NCBI RefSeq assembly: GCF_016906995.1
Contig: NZ_JAFBBD010000005.1
Span: forward strand, 62,001-126,000
Source: Spongiibacter marinus
GTDB lineage: Bacteria > Pseudomonadota > Gammaproteobacteria > Pseudomonadales > Spongiibacteraceae
Reading direction: 5' to 3'
DNA: 64,000 nucleotides
Under the pieces are notes generated by a model that was given only the letters and a program-made list of their open reading frames with translations, did no database searches and was not told where the DNA came from. A program made the position numbers and the translations under genes. Shown piece by piece: positions 20 through 64,000 of this stretch (position 1 is the first letter of the stretch; every line of letters begins with the position of its first letter).

Positions 20-64
20 AGAGATTGAGAAATAAGAGATTGAGAAGTAAGAGATTAAAAAGTA
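20..64. repeat. Three tandem 15-bp A/G-rich direct repeats
   Basis: Three adjacent 15-base units start at 20, 35 and 50. The first two differ at one base and the third differs at two or three more. A partial fourth copy starts at 65. They lie about 110 bp before the start of the TonB-dependent receptor gene, so they could be repeated binding sites or a slippage-prone spacer in its promoter region. The role is inference; only the repetition is seen. Confidence 0.75.
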
Positions 65-173
65 AGAGGTAAACGATCGAGGCTTGTGAGTTGTGACGGC
101 GTCGCCAGAACGCCGCTCTTCTTTTCGAATGCAAGCCGCCGCGCAGCATGGTGAGAAGCGAAGAGGGTAAAGC

Positions 174-2444
174 ATGAAGGCAGGGCATCGAGCGCGAATA
201 GGCGCAGCAATCGCCGCGACCGTAGTGGCAACAGGCGCGCAGGCGGCAAACAACCTCGCCCTAGAGGAAGTTTTGGTCACCGCGCAGAAGCGGGAGCAGA
301 GTGCCATGACGGTGCCGGTAACCGTGGATACCTTCAGTACCCAGGATCTGGAAAATACCGGGGCCTTAACCATGACCGACATTCAAGCCTATATTCCAGG
401 CTTGAAAGTGGGGACTAACATTCAGGATGCTGGCGGTGTTACCCAGTCCTCTTTTGTGATCCGCGGTATTGAAAGCTCTAATATCAGTACCGGTGGCGAC
501 CCCTCTGTCGCCACATTCTTGGATGGTGTCTACCTTCCTCGCGCGGCGATAACGGTGCCATTTTCAGATATGGACCGTGTCGAGGTTTTGAAAGGCCCGC
601 AGGGCACGCTGTTCGGGCGTAATGCCGCAGCAGGCGTGGTCAGCTTCGTTTCCAACCTTCCCGACCTTGAGGCGCGCGAGGGCTTTCTCTCCGCGAAACT
701 CGGGAATTACGGCCTCGTTCGCATTGAGGGCATGGGGAATGTGCCGCTGAGCGATAATCTGGCTTTGCGGGTCAATGTGCTGCACAACCAGCGTGATGCC
801 GTGGTCGACAATAAGGGGCCATCGCGGCCAGACCCGCGAGAGCAGGATAACCAATTCGCCAAAGTATCACTGTTGTGGCAGGCCAGTGATCGGCTGCGTA
901 TGCAGCTGTCTGCCGATTACGACAAGGTCGATAACGGCCCGCAGGCGATGATGGGAATTAGCGAGCAATACGCGGATTTTCCCGACCCAACGGATAGAAA
1001 AGTCAGTACCGATGCGCGCAAGCCCGGTGAGCGTCGCGATATGTACGGCGTGGTTGGCAAACTCTGGTTTGATGTGAACGATGCCAGTACCTTAAGCCTG
1101 ATCGCTAGCCATCGCGAATTTGAAACCTATAACTTGCAAGATGAAGACGGTACTGCCGTTGAAGATGTTTATGTAGATACCAACAACGTCGAAGACTCCG
1201 ATATCAGCTATCTCGAAGCGCAGCTCAATATCGCTCTGGAAAATGTCGATATGGTTTTCGGTGTTAACTACAGCACCGAAGATACCTACCAGCTCACCGC
1301 GTTAACCTTTAGTTACGGCGCCGTCGTCGAGCTGGCCTCCGACATGTTGGGCCTGCCCGCCAACGTGCTCAACTCGTTAATCGGAGGGGTGATTGCCGGT
1401 AATTATGTTACCGAGACGATGACCAATATCGGTGACTTTGAAAACTACGGCGTTTACTCAGACGTCGATTTTACGGTGACGGACCGGCTGAATATTCTAG
1501 CCGGTTTGCGCTACAGCAAAGATGACAAGCAGTTCAGCTGGGATGCGCCGCTTACTGATTTCCCGCTGTCGCAATTACAAGGGGAAAACTTTTTCTTCAA
1601 CACCAATGGTGTTGAGCGTGCCAGCGAAAGCTGGGACAAAATTACCGGCCGCCTGGTGGCGAACTATCAGCTGGCCGAGGGAGCGATGGCCTTCGCCAGT
1701 TACTCTACGGGTTACAAGTCTGGTGGCTACGACTCGTTAAACCCCGGCTCGGGGGATGTTCCTCTGGAACCAGAGGTCGTTAATAACTATGAGCTGGGGA
1801 TAAAAGGCGACTTTTTAGCCACGACGATTCGAACGCAGTTGGCGTTATTCCAAATGACCATCGACGACCGTCAGGAGGCTATTGAGTCGCAGCAGCCGGG
1901 CAGTGGCGCGGCAGTGCCGACGGTGATTAACACTGATGAAGATATCAGTGGTGTCGAGCTGACCTTAGATTGGTTGGTCACCGAGTCGCTCCGCTTTGGC
2001 GTGATTTATACCTACCGCGAGCAGGAGTCCAGCCGCGAGGCGCACTACGATGCGCAGGGTAATTTTGTTACCGCCGACAATCGTTCGGCGACAACACCTC
2101 AGGAATACACGCTTACCCTGGATTGGTCGCCAGAGCTTGCTGCGGGTACCGTGCTGTTTCACCTCGACTATGTGTACGAGGAGAATACAGACCGCGAGAA
2201 CGAGGACCACCTGGATGAGTTTAACCGTGTCCCCGGTTACGGCGATGATACCGAACTGCTCAATGCCCGCGTGAGTTTTATCACTCCGTCAGGGGGCTAT
2301 GAGTTTGCGGTGTGGGGTAAAAACCTCTTGGAAAACGAGCGGGTTTCGCAGCCCGGCGGTTTAACCGGCGATGTACTGGGCACCTACCACGTGGGCATTG
2401 TTGACCCACTCACCTACGGTGTCGACTTTAAGGCCTTTTTCTAA
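174..2444 (+). CDS. TonB-dependent outer-membrane receptor
   Basis: This 756-residue protein should import a scarce ligand across the outer membrane using TonB energy. A signal peptide covers residues 1-24 and ends AQA. A TonB-box-like stretch LEEVLVTAQKR (29-39) opens the plug domain, which contains the conserved VEVLKGPQGTLFGRN motif near 136-150. The rest reads as an alternating beta-barrel and ends in Phe, as expected for Bam-assembled porins. An AGAGGG ribosome-binding site precedes the ATG. The overall pattern is like the proteobacterial receptors often annotated for siderophores or unknown substrates. The ligand cannot be read from sequence, but the next gene encodes an exported phosphatase, so a phosphoester ligand is possible. 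Confidence 0.93.
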   Translation: MKAGHRARIGAAIAATVVATGAQAANNLALEEVLVTAQKREQSAMTVPVTVDTFSTQDLENTGALTMTDIQAYIPGLKVGTNIQDAGGVTQSSFVIRGIESSNISTGGDPSVATFLDGVYLPRAAITVPFSDMDRVEVLKGPQGTLFGRNAAAGVVSFVSNLPDLEAREGFLSAKLGNYGLVRIEGMGNVPLSDNLALRVNVLHNQRDAVVDNKGPSRPDPREQDNQFAKVSLLWQASDRLRMQLSADYDKVDNGPQAMMGISEQYADFPDPTDRKVSTDARKPGERRDMYGVVGKLWFDVNDASTLSLIASHREFETYNLQDEDGTAVEDVYVDTNNVEDSDISYLEAQLNIALENVDMVFGVNYSTEDTYQLTALTFSYGAVVELASDMLGLPANVLNSLIGGVIAGNYVTETMTNIGDFENYGVYSDVDFTVTDRLNILAGLRYSKDDKQFSWDAPLTDFPLSQLQGENFFFNTNGVERASESWDKITGRLVANYQLAEGAMAFASYSTGYKSGGYDSLNPGSGDVPLEPEVVNNYELGIKGDFLATTIRTQLALFQMTIDDRQEAIESQQPGSGAAVPTVINTDEDISGVELTLDWLVTESLRFGVIYTYREQESSREAHYDAQGNFVTADNRSATTPQEYTLTLDWSPELAAGTVLFHLDYVYEENTDRENEDHLDEFNRVPGYGDDTELLNARVSFITPSGGYEFAVWGKNLLENERVSQPGGLTGDVLGTYHVGIVDPLTYGVDFKAFF

Positions 2445-2456
2445 ATCGCGTTTCCC

Positions 2457-2484
2457 GGTGGCAGTTACTGGGCTGTCACCAGAT
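2457..2484 (+). terminator. Possible intrinsic terminator after the TonB receptor
   Basis: An 8-bp stem (2457-2464 with 2473-2480, one G-U pair) with an 8-base loop is followed by a short T-rich stretch (AGATTTTC). The T tract is weak, so it may only attenuate transcription into the phosphatase gene that begins about 60 bp further on. Confidence 0.35.
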
Positions 2485-2537
2485 TTTCATATTGGCCACC
2501 TACACTCCCCGCGATATTGATATCGGGGGGAGCCGTT

Positions 2538-4040
2538 GTGTCTTCAAGCAGTTTAAGTCGTCGCCGCTTTTTGGCGGGTAGCATGGCAGGTTTGGCTCTA
2601 AGCGCGTGTGGGGGCTCCTCGGGCAGCTCATCAAGCAGCGGCCCTGTCGATTCGCCACTTCCCCCGGACCCGCAGCCTGAGCCGATACCCGATAGTGCTG
2701 AGCCCGGCCCCATCCCGCCAAGAGGTTTGCACCTCAGCTTTGTTGGCGACAGCCACACCTCGCGCACGGTAACGTGGTTTACCGATGGCCTTGAACCGCC
2801 GCAGTCTCGCTTGGAGTTTGGCGTGGTTGAAGAGGGCATGAGCGAAGCTGATATCGCCGAGCAGGTGTTCGAGCATTTCGTCGATGCGAGTGCCGACGAA
2901 ACGCCGGGGGTGGAGAGTTTTACTCACCGTGCAACGGCAGCGGGGATTGATGCTGAAAAGCCCATGCGTTACCGCGTGGGCTCAGATGAGGGCGGTTGGT
3001 CTCCGGTGTATGTGGTTGCGCCGTCGCCGCGCGGCGAGTGGAGCTTTATCCACTTTGGCGACCACGGTATTGGTGACCTGCCCCAGCAACTGACGGCCGA
3101 AGTACTAAAAACACCCGCAGACCTGATTATGATTGCTGGGGATCTCAGCTACGCGAATGGCGACCAGCCAATCTGGGATACCTGGTTTGAGCAAATGGAG
3201 CCGCTGCTGGCTCACCGCATTACCATGACCGCGCCGGGCAATCACGAGCAAAAGGATTTTGGTGGCGAGGCTTTTAAAAACCGCTTTACCCACCCGCCCA
3301 AACCATTGAGTTCGGTGATTGGTCAGGGGAGTCCCGGCAGCTCGTTCTATTCCTTCGACTATAACCGCGTGCATTTTCTTGTAACAACGGCCGGGGCCTT
3401 GATCAACGACGGCACCCTCGTTGAAGAAATTATCAATATTGAGGTCGACCTGGCTCAGGCTGCACTGCGTCGAGCGCGGGGTGAGATCGACTTTATTGTT
3501 GTTATGCAGCACTACACGATCTGGACTGATCAGCTCGGTCGCAGCCCGGCTAACCCCACGTTGGTGGCGCTGGAAGAGAACATTATGCTGCGCTATGGCG
3601 TTGACCTGTTAGCGGTGGGGCACGACCATGTCTATCAGCGCTCCAAACCGATGGGACTGGGGCTGCCCAACCCCCTTGGTTATGTGCAGGTGCTGGTGGG
3701 AACGGGTGGCGCCTCTATTCGCCTGTTCGACGAAAATGGCCCGCAAATTTGGTCTGCGGCTGAATTTATTGGCGTTGGCTTTTGCCGCTATGCGGTTAGC
3801 CCCGGCAAGATTCGAGGCGAGTACTATGGCTCGCCGCCGTTGGACCTGAGCGATGAGGGACGGCAGTACATTACCGGCGACTTCTCACTTCAGGACAGTT
3901 TTGAGATAAGTACCAAGCCGCAGATTGCCTGCCAGTTGTGCGCCAAGCCGGCTCGCAGTAGTGACATCCTGCTCGCCGACTACGAGGCGATCTCCCGGCA
4001 TACTCGCGAGCGAAATCGCCACGACTTGAGACACTGTTAG
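2538..4040 (+). CDS. Purple acid phosphatase-like Tat lipoprotein
   Basis: Predicted metallophosphoesterase of the purple acid phosphatase family, hydrolysing phosphate esters outside the cytoplasm. The N-terminus has a twin-arginine signal (SRRRFLAG) ending in the lipobox LSAC, so the protein should be Tat-exported and lipidated at Cys24. A Ser/Gly/Pro linker leads to a PAP N-terminal fibronectin-like domain (about 55-150). The metal motifs follow in order: GDHG (~174), GDLSY (~200), GNHE (~234), QHYT (~323) and GHDH (~361). GTG at 2538 is chosen because a GGGGGGAG ribosome-binding site lies 6-7 bases before it; the in-frame TTG at 2517 has none. The stop overlaps the convergent peroxiredoxin gene by 4 bp. 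Pairing with the TonB receptor suggests organophosphate scavenging (inference). Confidence 0.88.
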   Translation: MSSSSLSRRRFLAGSMAGLALSACGGSSGSSSSSGPVDSPLPPDPQPEPIPDSAEPGPIPPRGLHLSFVGDSHTSRTVTWFTDGLEPPQSRLEFGVVEEGMSEADIAEQVFEHFVDASADETPGVESFTHRATAAGIDAEKPMRYRVGSDEGGWSPVYVVAPSPRGEWSFIHFGDHGIGDLPQQLTAEVLKTPADLIMIAGDLSYANGDQPIWDTWFEQMEPLLAHRITMTAPGNHEQKDFGGEAFKNRFTHPPKPLSSVIGQGSPGSSFYSFDYNRVHFLVTTAGALINDGTLVEEIINIEVDLAQAALRRARGEIDFIVVMQHYTIWTDQLGRSPANPTLVALEENIMLRYGVDLLAVGHDHVYQRSKPMGLGLPNPLGYVQVLVGTGGASIRLFDENGPQIWSAAEFIGVGFCRYAVSPGKIRGEYYGSPPLDLSDEGRQYITGDFSLQDSFEISTKPQIACQLCAKPARSSDILLADYEAISRHTRERNRHDLRHC

Positions 4041-4582
4041 GCGTTGTCCTGGGTGGCGCAAAACGCCAGCAGGTCATCGAAGGGCAGGTGATCGCCTTCG
4101 TCTTTGCCATAGTGAGCAACGCGAACAATACCGTCGCGGTCGATTAAAAAATTGGCTGGCATGGTTGTCATATTGCCTTTGATCGTAGTCGGCACATAGC
4201 CTTTGCACATACCGCGTATCGCTGTGGGCATGCGCGTCAGCATACCCTTTATCACCCCGAGTATTGAGCGTTGCACTGAGTAGCGCTCGTAGTATTGGCC
4301 GGTTTCATCGGCGAGAATTGGGAAGGGGGCGTGATGGTCAGCTGCGTGCTCCTGAAGGTTGTCCAGCGGCGAGTCAAATACCGCGACCACCGTAAAATCG
4401 TTAGTAAATTCATCGAAACGCTTTACCAGTTCATGAACCCGCATATTGCAAAAAGGGCAGCTGGCAAAGCGAAAGAACGACAGCATATAGGGTCGGCCTG
4501 CTAAGCTGGCTATGTCAAACTCCTCACCATTTATGGCGGTCAGGCGTAGGGGTAGGGCACGGTCGCCGGCTTGTACTGTCAT
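4037..4582 (-). CDS. Peroxiredoxin-like (AhpC/TSA, thioredoxin-fold) protein
   Basis: A 181-residue cytosolic protein with a thioredoxin-type fold. The active-site region SCPFC (Cys42, Cys45) follows the beta-strand YMLSFFRFA, and the C-terminal half carries the NFLIDRDGIVRVAHYG strand pair typical of AhpC/TSA proteins. The CxxC spacing is more thioredoxin-like than that of a classical peroxiredoxin, so it could be a peroxiredoxin-like reductase rather than a true peroxidase. A TGGAGA ribosome-binding site lies just before the ATG. It stands alone on the minus strand and converges on the phosphatase gene with a 4-bp overlap. Substrate unknown. Confidence 0.82.
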   Translation of the reverse strand: MTVQAGDRALPLRLTAINGEEFDIASLAGRPYMLSFFRFASCPFCNMRVHELVKRFDEFTNDFTVVAVFDSPLDNLQEHAADHHAPFPILADETGQYYERYSVQRSILGVIKGMLTRMPTAIRGMCKGYVPTTIKGNMTTMPANFLIDRDGIVRVAHYGKDEGDHLPFDDLLAFCATQDNA

Positions 4583-4712
4583 ACTGTCTCCAATGTTAAG
4601 GTCTTACATATCGCGGTGTGACGCACACGCCGCCATTTTGTTACACCTGCCGCACGATTGTGCGATTGGCTCACAGAAATAACCTTTCCTCTTTGGTGCT
4701 ACGGCACACTTC

Positions 4713-4741
4713 TTGACCTGCTGTGCAACTTAACGTAAAAG
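4713..4741 (+). promoter_or_regulatory. Candidate sigma-70 promoter for the repeat lipoprotein
   Basis: TTGACC at 4713-4718 is separated by 17 bases from TAAAAG at 4736-4741 in an A/T-rich stretch. It lies about 105 bp before the ATG of the repeat lipoprotein gene. The -10 hexamer is only fair. The rest of 4583-4845 shows no gene. Confidence 0.4.
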
Positions 4742-4896
4742 TTTAGAAAAATAATAATGAAATGTCAGACCTCGCCTTGGTTGCGCAGGTAGGCATTTTG
4801 AGTGTTTCAAGAAGAAACAGGCCTTCCGGCCCAACCGGGGTTCATATGTCATTATCAAAGTTTGCCATTGCGGTATTGTCCATTGGTCTTGCTGCC

Positions 4897-4917
4897 TGAG
4901 GAGGTTCCTCCTCCTCA
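4897..4917 (+). other. In-frame TGA at the lipobox cysteine, at the base of an 8-bp hairpin
   Basis: The codon after LAA should be cysteine (TGC/TGT) and is TGA. The same three bases begin a perfect inverted repeat, TGAGGAGG (4897-4904) with CCTCCTCA (4910-4917), around the loop TTCCT. A C-to-A or T-to-A change of a Cys codon is the simplest explanation. The hairpin partly follows from the GGA/GGT/TCC codons that encode the Gly-Ser linker. Confidence 0.85.
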
Positions 4918-6639
4918 AGCTCTAATTCTGGTGGCGGTACGACATCACCTAAACCTATCGAACAGGGGCGGCTGATAGATAGCCCGGTTAAGGGTGCGGG
5001 CTTCGTTAGCAGCTCGTCGATCACCGGTCTCACCAATGTGAATGGGGCATTTTCCTACCGCCAGGGCGACGCCGTCTCCTTCCGGCTTGGGGGGCTTTCG
5101 CTAGGGAGTGCGCAAGGGGCCGCCATTATTACCTTGCTGGATCTTGTTGGTGGTGCTCGGGCAGCGGCGAACAGTGGTAGCAGCACTGATGAGGTGTTGG
5201 ATGACTTTCCGGCGATCGTAAACCTGGCGCGCCTGCTCCAGTCTCTGGACGTGGATGGCGATAGTGGCAACGGTATACAAATTCCGTCAGAGGCAGCCCA
5301 AAAAGTTAGTGCTTACGTCAATAGCATCGACTTCACTGACCCGGATATGTTTGCCGACAGTGATAAACCGGCAGTGAAATTTATCTGCGAAGTAAAAGCG
5401 GCGAGAGGGATACCCGCCTGTAGTGAAAGTAACATTGTCGACGAGGACGCGGCTCGAAGCGAAGTAAAAGACACTGAAGAGCAGCGGCGCACTGGCAATA
5501 TCAATGAGCTGCCTATCGTCAGTGCTGGCGCTGACCTGGTCGTTGCTGAAGCCGGCAGCGTTACCCTGCAGGGAAGTGCGGAAGATAACGACGGCAATGT
5601 CACGGGCACGCTCTGGCAGCAGACTGACCGCAATGGTGTTGCGATTAATGGCAGCATCGAAATCAATAATCCCGGTTCCTTAACGGCCAGCTTCACCGCG
5701 CCGGAAGTCGATCAAGACAGAATCTTTTATTTTTCATTAACGGCGACAGACAACGATGGCGATCGAGCCAGCGATACCGTTGCTGTGCTAGTGCGCGACA
5801 GCAGTGGTGGTGGAAATGCGCGGCCTGTGGCCAATGCCGGTGTCGACCAAAATGTTGAGTCAGGCGAAGTTGTTGTACTCGACGGCAGTAATAGTGAAGA
5901 CCTGGATGGTCAGATAACAAGTTATAGCTGGTCGCAAATCGACGAGGATGGAAACTCGGTTAGCAATGGTGTTGCGCTGCAAAATGGCGATACCGCTGAG
6001 GCCAGTTTCACGGCGCCGAGCGTTGACGTAATTACTCAGCTGCGTTTTCGCCTGACGGTTTCGGATAACGAATCGGCGACCGATTTTGATGACATCACGA
6101 TCAACGTAAGCCCTGAGGATACCGAGCCCGAAAATGTGTCTCCTGTTGCTAATGCAGGCGATGACCAAAACGCTATAGCCGGCGACAGTGTCACTCTCGA
6201 CGCCAGTGCTTCAAGTGACGCTGATGGCGACGAGCTTAGCTATTCTTGGGAGCAGACTGACGATACGGATATCCAGCTCACCGGTGCCGATACAAAGGTT
6301 GCCAGTTTCACGGCACCAGATGTTAGCGAGTCAAGAACCCTGACATTCAAAGTAACAGTGAGTGATGGCGCACTCAGTGCAGACGACCATGTCAGCGTCG
6401 TTGTTGCGCCCGCGCCTGCGGTTTGTGATCCAGCCGATCCCGGTACCTACCAGCAGTGTTTTGCAATTTGTACTGACGGCGACCCCGACACAGCGTGCCC
6501 GCTGCCGTACGAGGATTTCTCCCCGAATCCAGAGCAATTTGAGGAGGTCTTTAGCCAGCTGCAGGCCTGTGCCGACCAAGACCCTGAAACACAGTGCCTC
6601 TTGCCCTTGGAGGGTGAGCCGGAATTTCCATCGCAGATA

Positions 6640-9170
6640 GAGGAGGTTTTGGGCGAACTCTGTGACGATGCGTCGAATCCGCAGCAGTGCTTAACCGACG
6701 GTCAGGATGCGATCTGTAGTGCGTTTGACCCAAATAGTGAGACGCCATTCTGCGGCGGAGGCGACCCAGGTACTCCCCCAGAACTGCCGGTCGATCCCAC
6801 TGAATTATTGGGCGAGCTTTGCGAAGATGCCTCGAATCCGCAGCAGTGCTTGACCGATGGGCAAGATGCTTTGTGTGGTGCATTTGACCCTAATAGTGAA
6901 ACGCCATTTTGCGGCGGTGGTGATCCGGGCACTCCGCCGGAGCTGCCGGTTGATCCCGCCGACTTACTGGGCGAACTCTGTGACGACACGTCCAACCCCC
7001 AACAGTGCTTAACCGATGGCCAGGATGCTTTGTGTGGTGCCTTTGACCCGAATAGTGAGACGCCATTCTGCGGCGGTGGCGACCCAGGTACTCCCCCAGA
7101 ACTGCCGGTCGATCCCACTGACTTATTGGGCGAGCTTTGCGAAGATACCTCGAATCCGCAGCAGTGCTTGACCGATGGGCAGAACGCTTTGTGTGGTGCC
7201 TTTGACCCGAATAGTGAGACGCCATTTTGCGGCGGTGGTGATCCGGGCACTCCGCCGGAGCTGCCCGTTGATCCCGCCGACTTACTGGGCGAACTCTGTG
7301 ACGACACGTCCAATCCCCAACAGTGCTTAACCGATGGCCAGGATGCTTTGTGTGGTGCCTTTGACCCGAATAGTGAAACGCCATTCTGCGGCGGTGGTGA
7401 TCCGGGCACTCCGCCGGAGCTGCCGTTTGATCCCACCGATTTATTGGGCGAGCTTTGCGAAGATACCTCGAATCCGCAGCAGTGCTTGACCGATGGTCAA
7501 GATGCTTTGTGTGGTGCCTTTGACCCGAATAGTGAGACGCCATTTTGCGGCGGTGGTGATCCGGGTACTCCGCCGGAGCTGCCGGTTGATCCCGCCGACC
7601 TACTGGGCGAACTCTGTGACGACACGTCCAACCCGCAGCAGTGCTTAACCGATGGCCAAGATGCGATCTGTGGTGCGTTTGACCCCAGTGGCATGACGCC
7701 ATTCTGTGGCGACCCCGGCACTCCGCCGGAACTGCCGGTCGACCCGGCCGACTTATTGGGTGAACTCTGTGACGATACCTCGAATCCGCAACAGTGCTTG
7801 ACCGATGGCCAAGATGCGATCTGTGGCGCGTTTGACCCCAATGGCATGACCCCATTCTGCGGCGATGCTGGCGATCCGGGCACTCCGCCTGAGCTGCCAG
7901 TCGATCCGACTGATTTAGTGGGCGAGCTCTGTGACGATGCCTCGAACCCCCAACAGTGCTTGACCGATGGTCAAGATGCGCTGTGCGGAGCTTTTGATCC
8001 AGAAGGTTTGACCCCATTCTGCGGCGATGCTGGCGATCCCGGTACTCCCCCAGAGCTTCCAGTCGATCCCGCCGACTTATTGGGTGAACTTTGCGAGGAC
8101 ACGTCCAATCCACAGCAGTGCTTAACCGACGGCCAAGATGCGATCTGTGGCGCGTTTGACCCCAATGGCATGACCCCATTCTGCGGAGATGGTGGCGATC
8201 CGGGCACTCCGCCTGAGCTGCCAGTCGATCCGACTGATTTATTGGGTGAGCTTTGCGACGATGCGTCCAATCCACAGCAGTGCTTGACCGATGGGCAAGA
8301 TGCGCTGTGCGGAGCTTTTGACCCAGAAGGTTTGACCCCATTCTGCGGCGATGGTGGCGATCCCGGTACTCCCCCAGAGCTTCCAGTCGATCCCGCCGAC
8401 TTATTGGGTGAGCTTTGCGACGATGCGTCCAATCCACAGCAGTGCTTGACCGATGGCCAAGATGCTCTGTGCGGAGCTTTTGACCCAGAAGGTTTGACCC
8501 CATTCTGCGGCGATGCTGGCGATCCGGGCACCCCCCAGAACTACCAATCGATCCGACTGATTTATTGGGTGAGCTTTGTGACGATACCTCGAACCCCCAA
8601 CAGTGCTTGACCGATGGGCAAGATGCTTTGTGTGGTGCCTTTGACCCGAATAGTACGACGCCATTCTGCGGGGGTTCCAGTGATCCGGGTACTCCGCCGG
8701 AACTGCCGGTCGACCCTGCTGACTTATTGGGTGAACTCTGCGACGATGCGTCGAATCCACAGCAGTGCTTGACCGATGGGCAAGATGCTCTGTGCGGAGC
8801 TTTTGATCCAGAAGGTTTGACCCCATTCTGCGGCGATGCAGGAGACCCAGGTACTCCCCCAGAGCTTCCAGTCGATCCCGCCGACTTATTGGGTGAGCTT
8901 TGCGACGACACGTCTAATCCACAGCAGTGCTTGACCGATGGCCAAGATGCGCTGTGCGGGGCTTTTGATCCAGAAGGTTTGACCCCATTCTGCGGCGGTG
9001 GCGACCCCGGTACTCCGCCGGAACTGCCGGTCGACCCCACTGACTTATTGGGCGAGCTCTGCGACGACACCTCGAATCCGGCGCAGTGCTTAACCGATGG
9101 CCAAGATGCGATTTGTACTGCGTTTGATCCTGATAGTGAGTCACCGTTTTGCGGAGGGGGCTCGGGCATT
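6640..9170 (+). repeat. 16 tandem ~159-162-bp repeats (four-cysteine protein repeat)
   Basis: Each unit encodes about 53 residues with the spacing C-x8-C-x8-C-x11-C and a Pro-rich link (DPGTPPELPVDP). Linker length varies: PFCGGG in units 1-6 and 15-16, PFCG in unit 7, four residues after the Cys (such as GDAG, GDGG or GGSS) in units 8-14. That gives unit sizes of 51-54 residues. Units 2-7 alternate PT-ED with PA-DD types, so the array grew partly by duplicating dimers of about 318 bp. The segment before it (about 6424-6640) holds C-x8-C pairs that look like degenerate founder units. Confidence 0.95.
8531..8536 (+). other. C6 homopolymer with net -1 frameshift in repeat 13
   Basis: Comparison with the other units shows that GGC-ACC-CCC-CCA-GAA needs seven C residues; six are present. 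Restoring one C joins the long upstream frame to the downstream frame that carries repeats 13-16 and the stop at 9183-9185. It could be a polymerase slippage mutation, a phase-variable tract or a homopolymer sequencing error. Confidence 0.85.
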
Positions 9171-9237
9171 CCATTACTGCAGTGACTAGTGTGTGGGCAT
9201 GGGTCCAGGCGCGGGGAATACTAGTTGGTGTTGCGGT

Positions 9238-10674
9238 CTATCCTAAGCTGAGAAGGCTTTGCTTAAGTTCCGAAAGCACCACTGACGCGCTCCTTTGGGA
9301 GCGCTCGTAGGGAACGCAAACATAGCCGCTGTAGATATCGGGACTGGCATTTTCAGTGTCTGCTGCAGCGCTTTCAATCTGGCTGATAAATCGTTGGCAT
9401 ATTGCCGGGCAGGCTTCTGCTTCGGCATTGGGGCAAACCACTACAAAATCTGCGTCGGTGATACGTGCGACGATATCGTCACGGCGGCAGTGGCGGTCGA
9501 CCCGCTGTGCGATCGCTTGCAGAAAGGCAACATTGTCCTCTTCAGAAATACATTCCCGTATGACGGAATAGTGGCGAATACCAACCAAAAATACCGACAG
9601 TGCCTGCTGGTCGTATTCACAGCGGTTGAGTTCGTTTTGGAGTAACGAGGTTAGTGCATGGCGGTTGTACAGCCCCGTTATCGGGTCGATAGATTCGCTA
9701 ACTTCGCTAACATCACGCGCTTTGTGCTTGTCTGGTTTTGGTAACTCGTCCGATGCTTTAAGAGCATTCTCGATACGCCGTGGCTGTAGTGCCTCTCTCA
9801 GGTGCTGTCCGGCTTTTTGAAATACTGCGGCCGGAATTTTCATTCGGTCAGCCAGTGGGCGCAGCTCATTGTATGCACTGCGAAACAGGTGTAGCTGCAT
9901 GGTTAGTTGGCCACTGTGCCATTCCAGTTCGTTCAAACAGTGGTAGTGGAGGCGTTGCAGGATGGCGTCAGGGTCGCTTGAAAAGGCCAGGTCTGCGGCC
10001 AGCGAAGAAAGCTTGGCGATAAACCCCAACTGCTCCGTCACGTTGTTGCTAAGTGGCGCCTCATTGAGGTGGCTCAGGCCGGTGGCGTTGCTTATTGCTT
10101 CGGGCAACCCCCACTTTTCTAAGAGAGTCTGACTTAGGGCTGAATGGTCAATGCCAAATGTATCGCGTTCCAGTGTTGCGAAGGTGTTGTGATCTTCGCC
10201 TTGGTTCTGGATTGGTTGATAAAACTCTGGTTGTAAGTGATCAATAGCCAGCATACCGATGTCTTGCAGGCTGGCGGCGATGATGGCCTCTTCAGCGGGA
10301 AGCGACTTATCCAGCTCACTTAGCAACCGGGCTGCTGTGGCGCAGAGCATGACCCTCAGCCAGAAGTGATGTTGGTCTAAGCGCCGGGTACCGGCTTTTG
10401 CATAGCTTTGCGCGATGGTTGCGGCGAGGCTTAGCGCTGCGACGGTTCTTCCCCCGAGCAGCACTGCAAGGCGATGGATGTCACTGTGCGGCCGCCTTGG
10501 TTGGAAAATGGGGGAGTTGACAAAATTCAGCGTATCTTCGGCAAGCCCCGGTGTGCCTTCTAGTATTTGTGTTAGCTGCTGAACTTCAAATTCGCCGCTG
10601 CGCAATAGGTCCGCCAGCAGCAGACTGGCCGGTGTAGGTGCGGGGAGTTTCCTATCATTAATGTCGAAAGCCAT
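9238..10674 (-). CDS. HDOD domain protein with degenerate GGDEF domain
   Basis: This 478-residue cytosolic signalling protein has an HDOD domain in its N-terminal half (about 15-215, with helices around HFWLRVMLCATAARLL and QDIGMLAID). A linker leads to a C-terminal GGDEF-family domain starting at DPITGLYNRHAL (about 325). The catalytic GGDEF signature is replaced by ARITDADFVV, so diguanylate cyclase activity is unlikely; the domain may bind nucleotide, act as a sensor or dimerise. It stands alone on the minus strand, next to the repeat lipoprotein locus, with 235 bp to the divergent acyl-CoA ligase. HDOD proteins are commonly tied to motility or stress signalling; the target here is unknown. 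Confidence 0.85.
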   Translation of the reverse strand: MAFDINDRKLPAPTPASLLLADLLRSGEFEVQQLTQILEGTPGLAEDTLNFVNSPIFQPRRPHSDIHRLAVLLGGRTVAALSLAATIAQSYAKAGTRRLDQHHFWLRVMLCATAARLLSELDKSLPAEEAIIAASLQDIGMLAIDHLQPEFYQPIQNQGEDHNTFATLERDTFGIDHSALSQTLLEKWGLPEAISNATGLSHLNEAPLSNNVTEQLGFIAKLSSLAADLAFSSDPDAILQRLHYHCLNELEWHSGQLTMQLHLFRSAYNELRPLADRMKIPAAVFQKAGQHLREALQPRRIENALKASDELPKPDKHKARDVSEVSESIDPITGLYNRHALTSLLQNELNRCEYDQQALSVFLVGIRHYSVIRECISEEDNVAFLQAIAQRVDRHCRRDDIVARITDADFVVVCPNAEAEACPAICQRFISQIESAAADTENASPDIYSGYVCVPYERSQRSASVVLSELKQSLLSLG

Positions 10675-10909
10675 CAGTCCGTCGATCTCGATCTTGGTGA
10701 ATCTGTGTGCGGCTGGGCTTCAAGATAGCAGCGAGCAGGGTATTGATCAGCCATTTTTTTATTTTAATACGAAATGCTTACTCTACGTGGCATCTGGGCT
10801 GAGAGGCATTCGTCCGCAAATCGATAGAAATAGCGCCCTTCAGGTGGTTCACCTCGAAGAGGGTGCTGGGCTAGTATTGGCCTAATTCAAATGAGGGAGA
10901 GTAATAATA

Positions 10910-12541
10910 ATGACCCCAATGATGATGAGCCAACTCACCATTACGTCAATCATGAAGCACGCCGAGCGAGTGAATGGCGCGACCGAAATTGTTTCGGTCA
11001 CTGCCGATAATCCACGTCATCGCTATACTTACAAAGATGCATTTAAGCGTGTTCGCCAGCTTGCCAATGCCCTGCAAACGATAGGGGCGCAGTCCGGCGA
11101 TACCCTCGCCACGCTGGCGTGGAATGACTACCGCCACCTGGAAATATACTACGCGCTATCTTGCAGTGGCATGATTTGTCACACCATAAATCCACGACTC
11201 TTCCCCGAGCAAATCGATTACATCGTTAATCACGCCAAGGATAAGTGGGTATTCGTTGACGCCACGTTGGTGAAGGTTCTAGAACCTTTGCAAGACAAAC
11301 TGCCCGCAGTAAAGGGTTATATCGTGCTGAGTGATGAAGCACATATGCCCGATACCAGCCTGAACAATGTGCATTGTTATGAGCAATTAATTGCTGCCGA
11401 GAAGGACGAGTTCGACTGGCCGGAGCTGGAAGAAACCACGCCATCAGCCTTGTGTTATACCTCCGGTACCACGGGTAATCCAAAGGGGGTGATGTACACC
11501 CATCGCTCTACGGTGTTGCACGCCTTTGCCAGTATTGCGCCGGATGTATTTGGTTTGTCGGTACGGGATGTGGCGATGCCTATTGTGCCGATGTTCCATG
11601 TTAACGGCTGGGGGCTGGTATACAGCGCTCCCATAGTGGGTACGAAACTGGTGATGCCCGGTCCGAAAATGGGCGATGGAGAAACACTGTGTGCACTGAT
11701 TAACGACGAGCAAGTGACCTGCTCGGCAGGTGTCCCTACCGTTTGGTTGGCGTTGCTGGATTACCTTGGCACATCCGGCAAACAAGTAGAAAGCCTGAAC
11801 CGAGTGACCGTCGGCGGTGCGGCCTGCCCGCTAAGAATTATGACCGACTTCCGCGACAATTACGGCGTTGAGGTACAGCAGGCATGGGGCATGACGGAAA
11901 TGAACCCCTTGGGCACCTTCAACGGAGGTATCCCGCTGCAGCTCGACGGTCTGAGCGAAGAAGAATACAACCAGATTCGCCTGAAGCAGGGGCGGCCGTC
12001 CTTTGGGGTGGAAATTAAAGTGGTCGACAGCGACAACAATGAGCTGCCGTGGGATGGCGAGAGCTCAGGTGCCGTCAAAGTGCGGGGCCCGTGGATCGTC
12101 AACGACTATTACGGCTACGACGGCAAAACCCTCGACGACGATGGCTGGTTTGAAACCGGCGATGTCGCCTGCTTCGACGAATACGGCTACATGCAAATCA
12201 CTGACCGCTTGAAGGATGTTATCAAGTCTGGTGGTGAATGGATCAGCTCAATAGAGCTGGAAAATTGCGCCGTTAACCACCCCAAAGTTGCCGAGGCCGC
12301 CGTGGTGGGTATTCCTCACCCGAAATGGACAGAGCGCCCACTGCTATTAGTGATTTTGAAAGACGGCGAGCAAATGGAAAAATCAGAAATGCTCGCTTGG
12401 TTCGAAGACAAAGTCGCCAAGTGGTGGATTCCAGGAGACTGCGTATTTGTTGACTCGCTGCCCCACACGGCAACCGGCAAGCTGAGTAAGAAGGACATTC
12501 GCGAGGACTACAAAGACTTCCGCTGGCAGGATGAGAGCTAG
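10910..12541 (+). CDS. AlkK-like medium/long-chain fatty acyl-CoA ligase
   Basis: A 543-residue AMP-forming acyl-CoA synthetase that activates a fatty acid with ATP and then CoA. The P-loop-like motif [12 protein letters not shown] lies near 182-193, WGMTEMNP near 325, the motif [19 protein letters not shown] near 415-430, KSGGEWIS near 440, and the C-terminal catalytic lysine in ATGKLSKKD near 520. N-terminal sequence and length resemble the AlkK/medium-chain ligase branch used in alkane or fatty-acid oxidation. A GAGGGAGAG ribosome-binding site precedes the ATG. It is monocistronic, and a candidate hairpin terminator follows. Chain-length preference is not readable from sequence. Confidence 0.9.
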
Positions 12542-12689: not shown

Positions 12690-13880
12690 ATGGAAAACCC
12701 CGCGTCCGCTGTGTCACCTGTCAGGGCCTTCAGCCTTGCGCCGTTGATGTTTCAAAACTTTAGCTGCACTTTGGCGATCATGGCCTTTGTTGCCCTGGTG
12801 GGCCCAGTGGCGCGTATTTTGTCTCTTGAGCCCTGGCATATTGGCGCCGCCATGACGATGGGGGGATTCACCTGGATCCTTTGTGCGCGCTGGTGGGGTG
12901 GCCTGAGCGACCGCCACGGCCGCAGGCCGATCATGCTGATCGGGCTAACAGGCTTTACGGTGAGCTACTTTGGTCTGTGCTTGTTTATTGACCTGTCACT
13001 GCGCCACCAAATACTGCCGATGCTGGCCTTTCTTGGGCTCGTTGTCGGGCGGGTGGTGGTGGGCCTGTTTTACGCGGCGGTGCCGGCCACAGCGGCCGCT
13101 ACGGTTGCAGACAATGTCGAGCCGGATAAGCGCGCTGGAGCTATGGCGTTACTCGGCGCAGCCAGTGGCGCGGGCATGGTAATCGGGCCGGGCTTTGTTG
13201 GCTTGTTAGCGCCCTACGGGCTGGGTTTTCCCATGTACGTGACCGCCGTTCTTCCCGTCTTGGCGCTGGTGTTGGTGTGGTGGCGTATTCCCCGGCAACC
13301 GCCTCAGGCGGCGCCGGTAACGCGCGCCCCAAAGCTGCAAGATCGACGCCTGCGGCGACCGATTGTGGTGGCGTTCTCTGCGGCATTTTCGGTCTCTATT
13401 GCTCAGGTCACGGTGGGCTTTTTTGCCCTGGATCAGCTCGGGCTTCCCGCGCCCGAGGCCGCTCAGGTGGCTGGTATTGCGCTAACCGTTGTCGGTGTGG
13501 CGTTAATTATTTCGCAGAGTATTTTGCGCAAACTATCCCAGCCGCCCGCGCGGCTAATCCGTATCGGAGCACTGGTGTCGGCCTGTGGTTTTATGGTCAG
13601 CGTGTGGGTTGAGTCAGTGTGGGGCTTGTGGGCGTGTTTTGGTTTGGCGGCCGCCGGAATGGGCTGGGTATATCCCTCGGTGTCGGCGCTGGCGGCAAAC
13701 TCGGTTTCTTCAGAGGAGCAGGGCGCTGCTGCCGGTACGGTCACCGTGGCGCAAGGCGTAGGCGTGGTCGTCGGGCCTATGTTAGGCACGTTTATTTATG
13801 CTTTTCATGCCTCTGCGCCGTATGTAATGGTCGCGGTATTACTGCTGGCGATCAGTGTCTGGGTTGAGCTAAACGATTAG
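12690..13880 (+). CDS. MFS transporter (TetA-like efflux type)
   Basis: A 396-residue, very hydrophobic protein with about 12 predicted membrane segments and the loop 2-3 signature GGLSDRHGRRP near 68-78, diagnostic of the major facilitator superfamily drug/H+ antiporter branch. The Gly-rich motif-C-like stretch GAASGAGMVIGPGFVGLLAPYG near 155-175 supports an efflux antiporter. The substrate is unknown. It starts with ATGGAAAACCCC about 150 bp after the acyl-CoA ligase and is followed after 59 bp by the broken permease gene on the same strand. Confidence 0.9.
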   Translation: MENPASAVSPVRAFSLAPLMFQNFSCTLAIMAFVALVGPVARILSLEPWHIGAAMTMGGFTWILCARWWGGLSDRHGRRPIMLIGLTGFTVSYFGLCLFIDLSLRHQILPMLAFLGLVVGRVVVGLFYAAVPATAAATVADNVEPDKRAGAMALLGAASGAGMVIGPGFVGLLAPYGLGFPMYVTAVLPVLALVLVWWRIPRQPPQAAPVTRAPKLQDRRLRRPIVVAFSAAFSVSIAQVTVGFFALDQLGLPAPEAAQVAGIALTVVGVALIISQSILRKLSQPPARLIRIGALVSACGFMVSVWVESVWGLWACFGLAAAGMGWVYPSVSALAANSVSSEEQGAAAGTVTVAQGVGVVVGPMLGTFIYAFHASAPYVMVAVLLLAISVWVELND

Positions 13881-13939
13881 CGTTGCAGAGCCACCGGGGT
13901 TTTGATTCACTGTGAACGAGCAGTGAATTGGAGCGCCGA

Positions 13940-14987
13940 ATGTCTACTTGTGATACCTCCCACCACAATAATTCACCCTCTTGCCACAGCAAGCAGTCCT
14001 TTGATGTGTTGCTGTGGGGCTCTATGGCAATTGTCGCTGTACTGTACGCGCTGGCGCTGGTGGCCAGCGACGCCCTGCCCACTTGGCTGCACACCGCAGC
14101 GGAGGCCACCGAAAACCTGGTGAATACCATGTGGTGGGGCATGGCTCTGGGGGTAGTGATGCTCTCGTTGTTAACGCGCATACCGCGAGAGTTTGTAATA
14201 AGCGTATTGGGCGCCGGTGGCGGTTTCACCGGCATTGTTCGGGCCACCGCGGCAGGCGTGCTGCTCGACCTGTGTATTAATGGTGGGTGCCAAACTCTAT
14301 GAGCGCGGCGCCAGCCTGGGGCAAGTGATGGCCTTTCTTATCGCCAGCCCCTGGAACTCCTTTTCCCTCACCTTGATATTGGTCGCCCTGATCGGGCTGA
14401 AGTGGACGGTGGTGTTCATTCTTGCATCGGTGCTAATTGCCGTGATTAGCGGCTGCTTGTTTGATGCATTGGTGCGGCGCGGGGTATTGCCCGCTAACCC
14501 CAACACGCTTGCGCTGCCAGAAAATTTCGACTTTTGGTCGCAGGCAAAGGCTGGCTTGCGAGACACGCGTTTTGATAAGCGCTTTGTATTCACCATGTTT
14601 GTCGATGGCATAAAAGAGTCGCGCATGGTGATGCGCTGGGTGTTATTTGGCATTGTGCTTGCCGTTGCCTTAAAAAGCTTTGTGCCGGCGGATATCTTTT
14701 CCAGTTATTTCGGGCCGAGCTTAATGGGCCTGGGGGCAACGATTGTGGCGGCCACGATTATCGAAGTGTGCTCCGAAGGTTCCACGCCGATTGCAGCAGA
14801 CCTGTTAACCAGAGCGAACGCCCCCGGAAACAGTTTTGCGTTTTTAATGACGGGCGCAAGCACCGACTATACCGAAATTATGGTGATGAAGGAGCGCACC
14901 GCCAGCTGGAAGGCGGCGTTGTTTTTGCCGCTGCTGACGGTGCCACAAATTGTGCTGGTCGCCTTGGTGATGAATGCCGGCGGCTAA
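13940..14987 (+). pseudogene. Metal-type permease (COG0701/DUF318 family), frameshifted
   Basis: Two overlapping frames make one permease. The first (ATG 13940, GGAG ribosome-binding site) has a Cys/His-rich N-terminus (STCDTSHHNNSPSCHS) and membrane segments up to ATAAGVLLDLC. The second resumes as LMVGAKLYERGASLGQVMAF and runs to 14987. At 14273-14279 one base separates the TGT and TTA codons of the two frames. Family members, as I recall them, have about four more residues here (roughly SHGI), so an 11-base deletion fits; a single inserted base would give the same shift. Related proteins are Cu/Zn or arsenite-type permeases. As written, the product stops after TM3-4 and should be non-functional. 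The stop overlaps the mscS-type gene by 3 bp. Confidence 0.78.
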
Positions 14988-17759: not shown

Positions 17760-19157
17760 ATGAAACGAGGAATAGTGTTTGCTATTGCCTGGCTAACGGC
17801 TATTGCGGCGCAGGCGTCAGAGGCGCACGCCACCGCAATGGACCTTACCCAGCACTGGGTCGGCTTTGTTGCCATTGCAGTATTTGTCGCCGCGTATGTG
17901 CTGGTGATCCTGGAAGAGCAAATACATCTGCGCAAATCCAAACCCGTGCTGCTTGCTGCAGGTATTATTTGGATGCTGATTGCCGTGGTTTACAACGGCA
18001 ACGGGCGGCCCCACGAAGTGGAGGTGGCAATTCGCCACAACTTCCTGGAATACGCCGAGCTATTCTTCTTTCTGCTGGTAGCAATGACCTACATAAACGC
18101 CATGCTGGAGCGCGGCGTATTTGAGGCGCTGCGCAACTGGCTGGTGGCGCGGGGCTTTAGTTACCGCGCGCTGTTTTGGCTAACGGGTATTCTGGCCTTC
18201 TTTATTTCGCCCATTGCCGACAACCTCACCACGGCATTAATTATGTGTGCGGTGGTGTTGGCGGTAGGCGTTGGCCAGCCCAAGTTCGTGGCCATTGCCT
18301 GTATTAACATTGTGGTGGGCGCCAATGCGGGCGGCGCGTTCAGCCCCTTTGGCGACATCACCACACTGATGGTATGGCAAAAAGGCGTTATTGAATTTAA
18401 AGAATTCTTTGTGCTGTTTGTCCCCAGTGCAGTGAACTTCCTGTTGCCTGCCGTCATCATGCAATTTGCCCTGCCCAGTGGCACGCCCCCGGCATCGGGC
18501 GGCAGCCAGGTGCAAATGAAATATGGCGGTTTGGTGATTGTTGGTCTGTTCCTGCTGACTATCGTTACTGCTATCAGTTTCCACAACTTCCTGCACATCC
18601 CCCCGGTATTCGGCATGATGACCGGCCTGGCCTACCTCAAGTTCTACGGTTATTACCTTCGCCAAAAATCCAAAAACTGGAACCAGGGAACAGAGAACCC
18701 GCCGGGCTCATCCGACGACCCCTACAACTTCGACGTGTTTGCCAAAATCGCTCACGCCGAATGGGACACCCTGTTCTTCTTCTACGGCGTTATTCTGGCC
18801 GTGGGCGGCTTGGGCTTTATCGGCTACCTCAGCGTCGCGTCTGACCTCGTATACGGCGGCTTGGGCAATACCGGCGCCAATATTATGGTGGGTATCATGT
18901 CGGCCATCGTCGACAACATCCCGGTTATGTTCGCCGTACTCACCATGAGCCCCGATATGCCGCACTCGCAGTGGCTGCTGGTTACCCTAACCGCTGGGGT
19001 CGGTGGTAGCTTGCTCTCTATCGGCTCGGCCGCTGGCGTTGCCCTAATGGGCCAGGCAAGAGGCCAATACACCTTCTTCAGCCACCTGAAATGGACGCCA
19101 GTCATTGCGCTGGGCTACGGCGCCAGTATTTGGGTTCACTTGCTAATGAATGGTTAA
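17760..19157 (+). CDS. nhaD: Na+/H+ antiporter NhaD
   Basis: A 465-residue sodium/proton antiporter of the NhaD/ion-transporter superfamily, typical of marine and halophilic gammaproteobacteria. A signal-like N-terminus (MKRGIVFAIAWLTAIAAQASEA) is followed by about 12 membrane segments. Conserved polar stretches within the membrane include SPIADNLTTALIM (about 142-154), NIVVGANAGGAFSPFGDITTLMVW (about 182-205) and, in the second half, MSAIVDNIPVMFAVL. The two inverted halves with Asp-Asn pairs match the fold of this superfamily. A GGGAGAA ribosome-binding site is 6 bases before the ATG. It ends at a shared terminator with tmRNA. Confidence 0.94.
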   Translation: MKRGIVFAIAWLTAIAAQASEAHATAMDLTQHWVGFVAIAVFVAAYVLVILEEQIHLRKSKPVLLAAGIIWMLIAVVYNGNGRPHEVEVAIRHNFLEYAELFFFLLVAMTYINAMLERGVFEALRNWLVARGFSYRALFWLTGILAFFISPIADNLTTALIMCAVVLAVGVGQPKFVAIACINIVVGANAGGAFSPFGDITTLMVWQKGVIEFKEFFVLFVPSAVNFLLPAVIMQFALPSGTPPASGGSQVQMKYGGLVIVGLFLLTIVTAISFHNFLHIPPVFGMMTGLAYLKFYGYYLRQKSKNWNQGTENPPGSSDDPYNFDVFAKIAHAEWDTLFFFYGVILAVGGLGFIGYLSVASDLVYGGLGNTGANIMVGIMSAIVDNIPVMFAVLTMSPDMPHSQWLLVTLTAGVGGSLLSIGSAAGVALMGQARGQYTFFSHLKWTPVIALGYGASIWVHLLMNG

Positions 19158-62129: not shown

Positions 62130-64000
62130 ATGTCTGACAATATCGTGATCGGCGCCGATGGCGTTGAGCAGATCCCATTAAAATCTTATACCGAGAAGGC
62201 GTATTTGGATTACTCCATGTACGTTATTCTTGATCGCGCGCTGCCGAATATTGCCGATGGCTTAAAGCCTGTTCAGCGCCGAATTGTCTATGCGATGAGT
62301 GAGCTGGGATTAAAGGCCAGCGCAAAATACAAGAAGTCGGCGCGCACCGTTGGCGATGTTATCGGTAAGTTCCACCCCCATGGCGATAGTGCGGTCTATG
62401 AGGCCATGGTGCTCATGTCTCAGGACTTCTCTTACCGTTATCCGCTGATTGACGGTCAGGGGAACTGGGGTTCTCCCGATGACCCCAAATCGTTTGCGGC
62501 GATGCGCTATACCGAATCCAAGTTAACGCGCTACGCCGAAGTCATGCTGAGCGAGTTGGGGCAGGGAACGGTAGATTGGGTGCCGAATTTTGACGGTGCG
62601 CTTGATGAGCCTGCCATGCTGCCCGCGCGGGTGCCCAATATTTTGCTGAACGGTACCACAGGTATCGCGGTGGGAATGGCCACCGATATCCCCCCTCATA
62701 ATCTTCGGGAAGTGGTGAGTGCCTGCATTCATCTTCTCGATGCGCCCAAGGCCACCGTTGCCGAACTCTGTGAGCACGTGAAGGGCCCGGATTTTCCTAC
62801 CGATGCCGAGCTGATTACCCCCGCTGACGAAATTCGAAAAATCTATGAGACCGGGCGCGGCTCCTTGAGAATGCGGGCGGTGTGGCAGGAGGAGCACGAC
62901 GACATCGTTATTACGGCGTTGCCTCACCAGACATCAGGCTCCAAGGTGTTGGAGCAAATTGCCCAGCAAATGCAGGCCAAGAAATTGCCAATGGTGGTCG
63001 ACTTGCGCGATGAGTCCGACCACGAAAATCCGACCCGGCTGGTGATCGTGCCGCGCTCTAACCGAGTGAATACCGAAGCGCTAATGAACCATCTGTTCGC
63101 CACCACGGACCTGGAGCGCAGTTATCGGGTCAATATGAATATGATCGGCATTGATGGCCGGCCGCAGGTAAAGAGCCTGGATCGTATTCTCGGAGAGTGG
63201 CTGGAGTTTCGTACCAACACCACTCGCCGGCGTTTGGAATTCCGTCTCGATAAAGTTCTCAAGCGTTTGCATATTCTCGATGGTTTATTGGTCGCGTTCC
63301 TCAATATCGATGAGGTCATTGCCATTATCCGTGAAGAGGATAAACCGAAGCCTGTGCTTATGGAGCGCTTCGGTTTAAGCGACACGCAAGCCGAAGCCAT
63401 CCTAGAGCTGAAACTGCGTCATTTGGCCAAGCTCGAGGAGATGAAAATTCGCGGCGAGCAGGAAGAGCTGTCGGCCGAGCGGGACCAGCTCGAGCAGACG
63501 CTTGGCTCCACCCGTCGAATGAAAACGCTGGTGCGCAAAGAGCTATTGGCCGCGGCAGAAGAATATGGCGACGAGCGCCGTTCACCGCTGGTGGCGCGTA
63601 ACGAGGCGAAGGCCTTTGCGGAAGAGGATATCGTCTCCGCTGATCCAGTAACCATTGTTTTGTCGGAAATGGGTTGGATTCGCGCGGCCAAAGGCCACGA
63701 TATTGACCCTGTTGCTCTTAGCTATAAGTCGGGCGACCGTTTCAATTTGGCGGCGAGGGGGCGCAGTAACCAGTCCGTATTGATCTTGGACAGCACCGGC
63801 CGCAGTTACAGCGTCGCCGCTCACACACTGCCATCGGCTCGAGGACAGGGGGAGCCCCTGACTGGGCGCATTAACCCGCCGTCGGGCGTGAGCTTTTGCG
63901 GAATGATGATGGGGGGCGACGACAGTTATTACCTGCTGGCCTCCGATGCGGGTTATGGCTTCGTTGCCAAGCTGGGTGATTTACACAGTAAAAACAAAGC
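62130..64000 (+). CDS. parC: DNA topoisomerase IV subunit A, ParC (3' end outside window)
   Basis: At least 623 residues are present, with no stop before the window edge. ParC decatenates replicated chromosomes with ParE. The opening [46 protein letters not shown] is standard. The quinolone-resistance region [15 protein letters not shown] has Ser87 and Glu91 (E. coli 80 and 84), the wild-type, sensitive residues. The active-site Tyr127 is in [11 protein letters not shown] coiled region (about 420-480) leads into the C-terminal beta-pinwheel, of which blades starting near 500 are seen. Confidence 0.96.

Follow-up and report, generated by a model that had tools for sequence, protein, structure and literature searches.

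The window analysed here, a stretch of 64,000 nucleotides from Spongiibacter marinus, carries a gene that begins like a bacterial lipoprotein gene and is interrupted by a stop codon. An ATG at 4846-4848 is followed by MSLSKFAIAVLSIGLAA, by a TGA at 4897-4899 and then by GGSSSSSSNSGGG, all in one frame. Bacterial lipoproteins are defined by a hydrophobic signal peptide (type II) whose end forms a lipobox, the cysteine at position +1 being invariant; in the window the signal peptide and the LAA of the lipobox are present, but the +1 codon is TGA and there is no Cys, and the sequence as it stands departs from this definition. The original prediction had placed the TGA exactly on the lipobox Cys codon and had seen a Ser/Gly linker continue in frame 3' of it; both points are confirmed, the first by the sequence at 4846-4899 together with that of relatives, the second by the residues encoded after 4899. 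Coordinates of the features are collected in Table 1.

Table 1. Features of the interrupted lipoprotein gene, in window coordinates
Feature	Position	Strand	Basis or remark
Coding sequence of lipoprotein signal peptide, MSLSKFAIAVLSIGLAA	4846..4896	+	sequence read; aligned with relatives
In-frame TGA at the lipobox cysteine codon	4897..4899	+	sequence read; Cys codon in 10/10 relatives read
Perfect 8-bp inverted repeat including the TGA (arms 4897-4904 and 4910-4917, 5-nt spacer)	4897..4917	+	folds; interrupted in sister
Ser/Gly linker, N-terminal part and PKD/K319L-like domains	4900..6640	+	frame open and conserved
GTG, earliest in-frame start-type codon 3' of the TGA	5038..5040	+	script; Shine-Dalgarno sequence and signal peptide looked for by eye, none seen
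Cys-rich tandem repeat array, period 159 bp, 15.4 units	6649..9110	+	repeat search
C-run where the array loses frame (second lesion of the gene)	8531..8536	+	translation of array
3' end of the lipoprotein gene in another frame, ending in GSGIPLLQ and a stop	8565..9185	+	sister gene ends in GSGIPLL and a stop

Beyond the TGA, the frame stays open from 4900 to a second TGA at 8608-8610 (1236 codons), and a genome search agrees on the same frame. Pfam domains identified in the gene are a K319L-like PKD domain (5.9e-43) and PKD_4 (8.6e-19). As comparison with the closest relative shows, this open frame is not due to chance, since that genome encodes the same protein (96% identity over 321 residues) with an N-terminus that aligns residue for residue. 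The repeats of the array that follows are Cys-rich and about 53 residues long, and appear to recur in a relative with 56% identity (locus L007, positions 1-900, compared by eye from the untranslated sequence). The only best Pfam stretch listed in the array is a match to Alpha amylase inhibitor (26.9 bits, cut-off 25), and the repeat may therefore be an undescribed unit.

The closest relative, hereafter the sister, is Neomelitea salexigens DSM 19753 (Spongiibacter marinus at NCBI; NZ_KE383819.1, locus L004). Window positions 50-6852, a segment made up of the upstream genes and 2 kb from the start of the lipoprotein gene, are 95.3% identical to the sister over 6806 columns. The sister gene has the same neighbours, the same signal peptide, a matching PKD part and Cys-rich repeats; it differs in that its lipobox Cys codon is present, the codon matching 4897-4899 being TGC, and in that a run of N lies within its array. 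A search of 38 genomes for the lipoprotein gave matches in 22, the window's own genome included. TGC or TGT was found in a lipobox at the aligned place in all ten relatives whose N-termini were read (L004, L007-L010, L017, L019, L021, L023 and L024), this set consisting of matches that reach the N-terminal part and leaving out PKD-only matches and several N-terminal matches without a fetched locus. The more distant of the ten are about 34-38% identical and share the N-terminal part without necessarily being orthologues. The alignment of orthologues at this codon that had been called for thus yields a Cys codon in the sister and in nine more distant relatives, and none of the ten starts downstream with another signal peptide, the observation that had been named as speaking against an interrupted lipobox.

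The part of the gene 3' of the TGA still appears to be under strong constraint. For the 605 codons of 5038-6852, 70 synonymous and 21 nonsynonymous changes separate window and sister (dN/dS 0.081), a value inside the range of the remaining genes of the window. Polarisation by three outgroups, two of them near-identical, of the 21 amino-acid differences in 4846-6654 (the stop included) assigned eight to the window branch and five to the sister branch, with eight unresolved; the changes are not clearly concentrated on the window branch. Neither the dN/dS ratio nor the polarised changes (eight versus five) give a sign of relaxed selection after the lesion. Such undiminished constraint implies that the break is recent relative to the split of the two genomes, or that the protein is still made, or that the base is wrong.

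A second lesion was identified inside the array. Near 8531 the repeats shift frame: the first frame acquires an unrelated tail and stops at 8610, and the repeats resume in another frame that runs to 9185 and ends in GSGIPLLQ. The gene of the sister ends in GSGIPLL, and 8565-9185 is therefore the native 3' end of the window gene. Of the single giant frame of a repeat lipoprotein proposed originally, the portion past the TGA is indeed open, but the array departs from that frame near 8531. Repeat arrays such as the one holding this lesion can be misassembled, and the run of N in the array of the sister leaves the frame change without a counterpart to compare. C-runs were also seen by eye in other units of the array, and could render it prone to slippage.

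We propose that the TGA is probably a recent and real nonsense substitution, which changed the lipobox Cys codon of a gene for a lipoprotein with PKD domains and Cys-rich repeats to UGA, and that the gene is now a young pseudogene. RF2 would end translation at the UGA in the ordinary way, after 17 residues, and the strain would then be without the exported, lipidated protein that this gene specifies; template switching in a quasipalindrome would be a possible source of the substitution, given the perfect 8-bp hairpin at the site. The young pseudogene would carry the array frameshift as its second lesion. The assignment as a pseudogene follows from a disabling TGA and a frame change in the array as compared with intact relatives, the array itself not being comparable in the sister. 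From this evidence we infer both that the bases are real and that the product is absent. Three options had been left side by side at the outset: a nonsense mutation is the best supported, because the Cys codon is present in ten relatives, the same gene carries a frameshift and another gene carries an 11-base deletion; UGA recoding is disfavoured; and an error in the sequence retains a minor but appreciable chance.

According to that last option, codon 4897-4899 of the strain truly encodes Cys, and the frameshift at the C-run of the array is an error as well. The normal constraint 3' of the TGA is what this would predict, and both the hairpin at the site (z -3.17) and a C-run in a tandem array are plausible contexts for errors. 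Window and sister were compared over nearly the full length, the inner array excepted. Of the sister ORFs of at least 100 residues, 49 have a match in the window, and for 42 of these no stop or loss of coverage was flagged there, which argues against an assembly with errors throughout. By our reading, the seven flagged ORFs comprise the lipoprotein gene, a gene of the ArsP_1 family, two upstream extensions (one of an AhpC/TSA gene, the other of the gene at 17760 and with a one-base gap 5' of the ATG of that gene) and three minus-strand frames without support as genes. Read in this way, the broken coding genes among the seven are two, i.e. the lipoprotein gene and the ArsP_1-family permease (PF03773; window 13883-14987), which in the sister encodes 371 residues (Pfam 7.7e-27). 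The permease gene, nine kb from the lipoprotein gene, has lost 11 bases between 14274 and 14275, which breaks its frame, and a deletion of this size, as opposed to a change of one base, is atypical as a base-calling error. An erroneous base at 4897-4899 is the less likely reading, although it is the strongest competitor of the nonsense substitution.

Translation could also restart downstream of the TGA, for instance at the GTG at 5038 or at an ATG at 5347, such that an unlipidated protein would still be made and used. This would agree with the strong constraint on the downstream sequence, and a GGAGG directly behind the TGA resembles the core of a Shine-Dalgarno sequence. However, no ATG, GTG or TTG occurs at 4906-4925 in any frame, and termination-reinitiation via the GGAGG was rejected, as there is no start codon at a usable distance. 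The GTG at 5038 is indeed the first in-frame start codon past the TGA, as had been stated and as the start-codon scan bears out; on inspection by eye it has neither a Shine-Dalgarno sequence nor a signal peptide following it. Moreover, the Cys-rich repeats suggest an exported protein, and the upstream lipoprotein signal is the one used by the ten relatives read. Restart is therefore improbable.

More improbable still is decoding of the UGA as an amino acid (Cys, Sec or another) at the lipobox with the hairpin acting in cis, in which case lipidation would require readthrough. The UGA falls exactly on the Cys codon, the frame is conserved 3' of it, and the hairpin at the UGA is strong (-26.3 kcal/mol, z -3.17), none of 200 shuffled sequences folding as well. 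An in-frame UGA at a Cys position with a hairpin at it would recall bacterial selenocysteine recoding, which uses SelA, SelB, SelC and SelD, the hairpin spanning the UGA being at most a candidate for a SECIS-type element. The locus differs from that system in that the relatives read have Cys codons and in that the pathway genes are unmatched or below cut-off. The search for selA, selB and selC advised earlier was performed on the genome of the window, a draft of 29 contigs with completeness 99.99, and lends recoding no support. The selA profile (TIGR00474), which matched four of 14 control genomes and exceeded its cut-off in one, has no match in this genome; the best scores for selB (110.9 bits, cut-off 242.25) and selD (52.7 bits, cut-off 125) are below their cut-offs. 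The tRNA-Sec model gave 11 matches, the best at 45.3 bits and below the gathering score of 47 (150 of 346 first-look candidates were scored). At the eight loci holding nine of these matches ARAGORN assigned tRNAs for Thr, Gly, Tyr, Leu, Ser, Trp and Cys, and no UCA anticodon; the two matches outside these loci are the weakest, at 31.3 bits. With selA unmatched and selB, selD and tRNA-Sec under their cut-offs, selenocysteine recoding was rejected.

A genome-wide reassignment of UGA was likewise rejected, since RF2 (prfB) is present at 503.7 bits, over its cut-off of 370, and 15 of 44 genes in the window end in TGA (22 in TAA and seven in TAG). These 44 genes are the 49 ORFs of the window minus the two pieces of the lipoprotein gene and the ORFs at 13852-14247, 14217-14987 and 62523-62927. 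A lipobox-TGA-Gly pattern, restricted to Gly behind the TGA and to part of the residues possible in a lipobox, was matched 23 times in the genome and 13 times by a reversed control, an excess tentatively ascribed to base composition. On inspection of all 23 matches, each with about 500 bases of flanking sequence, a hydrophobic signal peptide together with a long open frame was found at the 4846 locus only. One other match (L057) has 167 open codons that reach the edge of the sequence retrieved, no hydrophobic segment preceding it, and the remaining ones have at most 84. A TGA in the lipobox as a habit of this genome was thus not found with this pattern.

Three further points weigh against readthrough. 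First, the codon is TGC or TGT in the ten relatives read. Secondly, the sister, which has no UGA, still has a shorter and interrupted hairpin (-21.8 kcal/mol, z -1.49). Finally, the later frameshift would truncate the product anyway. Decoding of the UGA at a low rate with help of the hairpin, as Cys by a near-cognate tRNA or as another residue, so that a small fraction would be lipidated and exported, is equally remote. Among the literature matches listed for selenocysteine together with lipobox, none is on this subject by title, and those listed in a broader search, or for a lipobox with a premature stop or pseudogene, include no stop at the lipobox Cys. If it were true, UGA decoding here would amount to a switch of surface anchoring at the level of translation, located at the sole residue on which lipidation depends. 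The locus rather calls for caution, in that a stop exactly at a functional Cys is no evidence of recoding unless the machinery is present and relatives share the UGA.

For the nonsense substitution, the inverted repeat at the TGA suggests an origin by a quasipalindrome-templated mutation. The new base raises the complementarity of a nearby inverted repeat, with arms of 8 bp in the window that are interrupted in the sister. Mutations that perfect imperfect inverted repeats form a recognised class, one hotspot of which lies in thyA of E. coli (PMC7202029). The present site resembles the quasipalindrome template-switch hotspots in that a base change perfects an imperfect inverted repeat; it differs from the thyA hotspot in that one event, of presumed direction, is proposed here, without a clear excess across the window. 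In a comparison chosen after the hairpin had been noticed, 331 other one-step substitutions to a stop (at 294 of the 1217 codons of 4846-8499, the TGA codon excepted) did not once produce an inverted repeat of at least 8 bp, as the actual TGA does; the longest was 6, in three cases. A second difference from the sister lies at 4911, in the opposite arm, and with differences in both arms a single event is insufficient for both.

Among 2805 SNPs between window and sister, those completing arms of at least 8 bp numbered ten for window alleles (7.0 expected), two of them in the TGA hairpin, and six for sister alleles (6.5 expected). For arms of at least 7 the numbers were 30 versus 17.5 expected in the window, a raised figure but one of several looks, and 14 versus 19.0 in the sister; for arms of at least 9 they were one versus 3.5 and three versus 3.0, respectively. 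There is thus no clear general excess of hairpin-completing SNPs across the window, and it is the TGA site by itself that carries the case for a hairpin origin. Template switching in the quasipalindrome may have generated the substitution, a tangible possibility which nevertheless falls short of an even chance. The locus is a natural candidate for hairpin-templated nonsense mutation, because the Cys codon of a lipobox can enter into quasipalindromes with a Gly-Gly-Ser-Ser linker just behind it. Taken alone, this gene has little weight: overall it is an ordinary case, the recently broken gene of a surface protein in a single marine bacterium.

The comparison with the sister also showed a raised dS for the HDOD/GGDEF and AMP-binding genes located 3' of the array (9238-12541), at 0.51 and 0.43. 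Elsewhere the genes of the window have values of 0.02-0.31, apart from zero at 62523 and 1.40 for a badly alignable piece of the array. The raised dS at 9238-12541 suggests recombination with another lineage.
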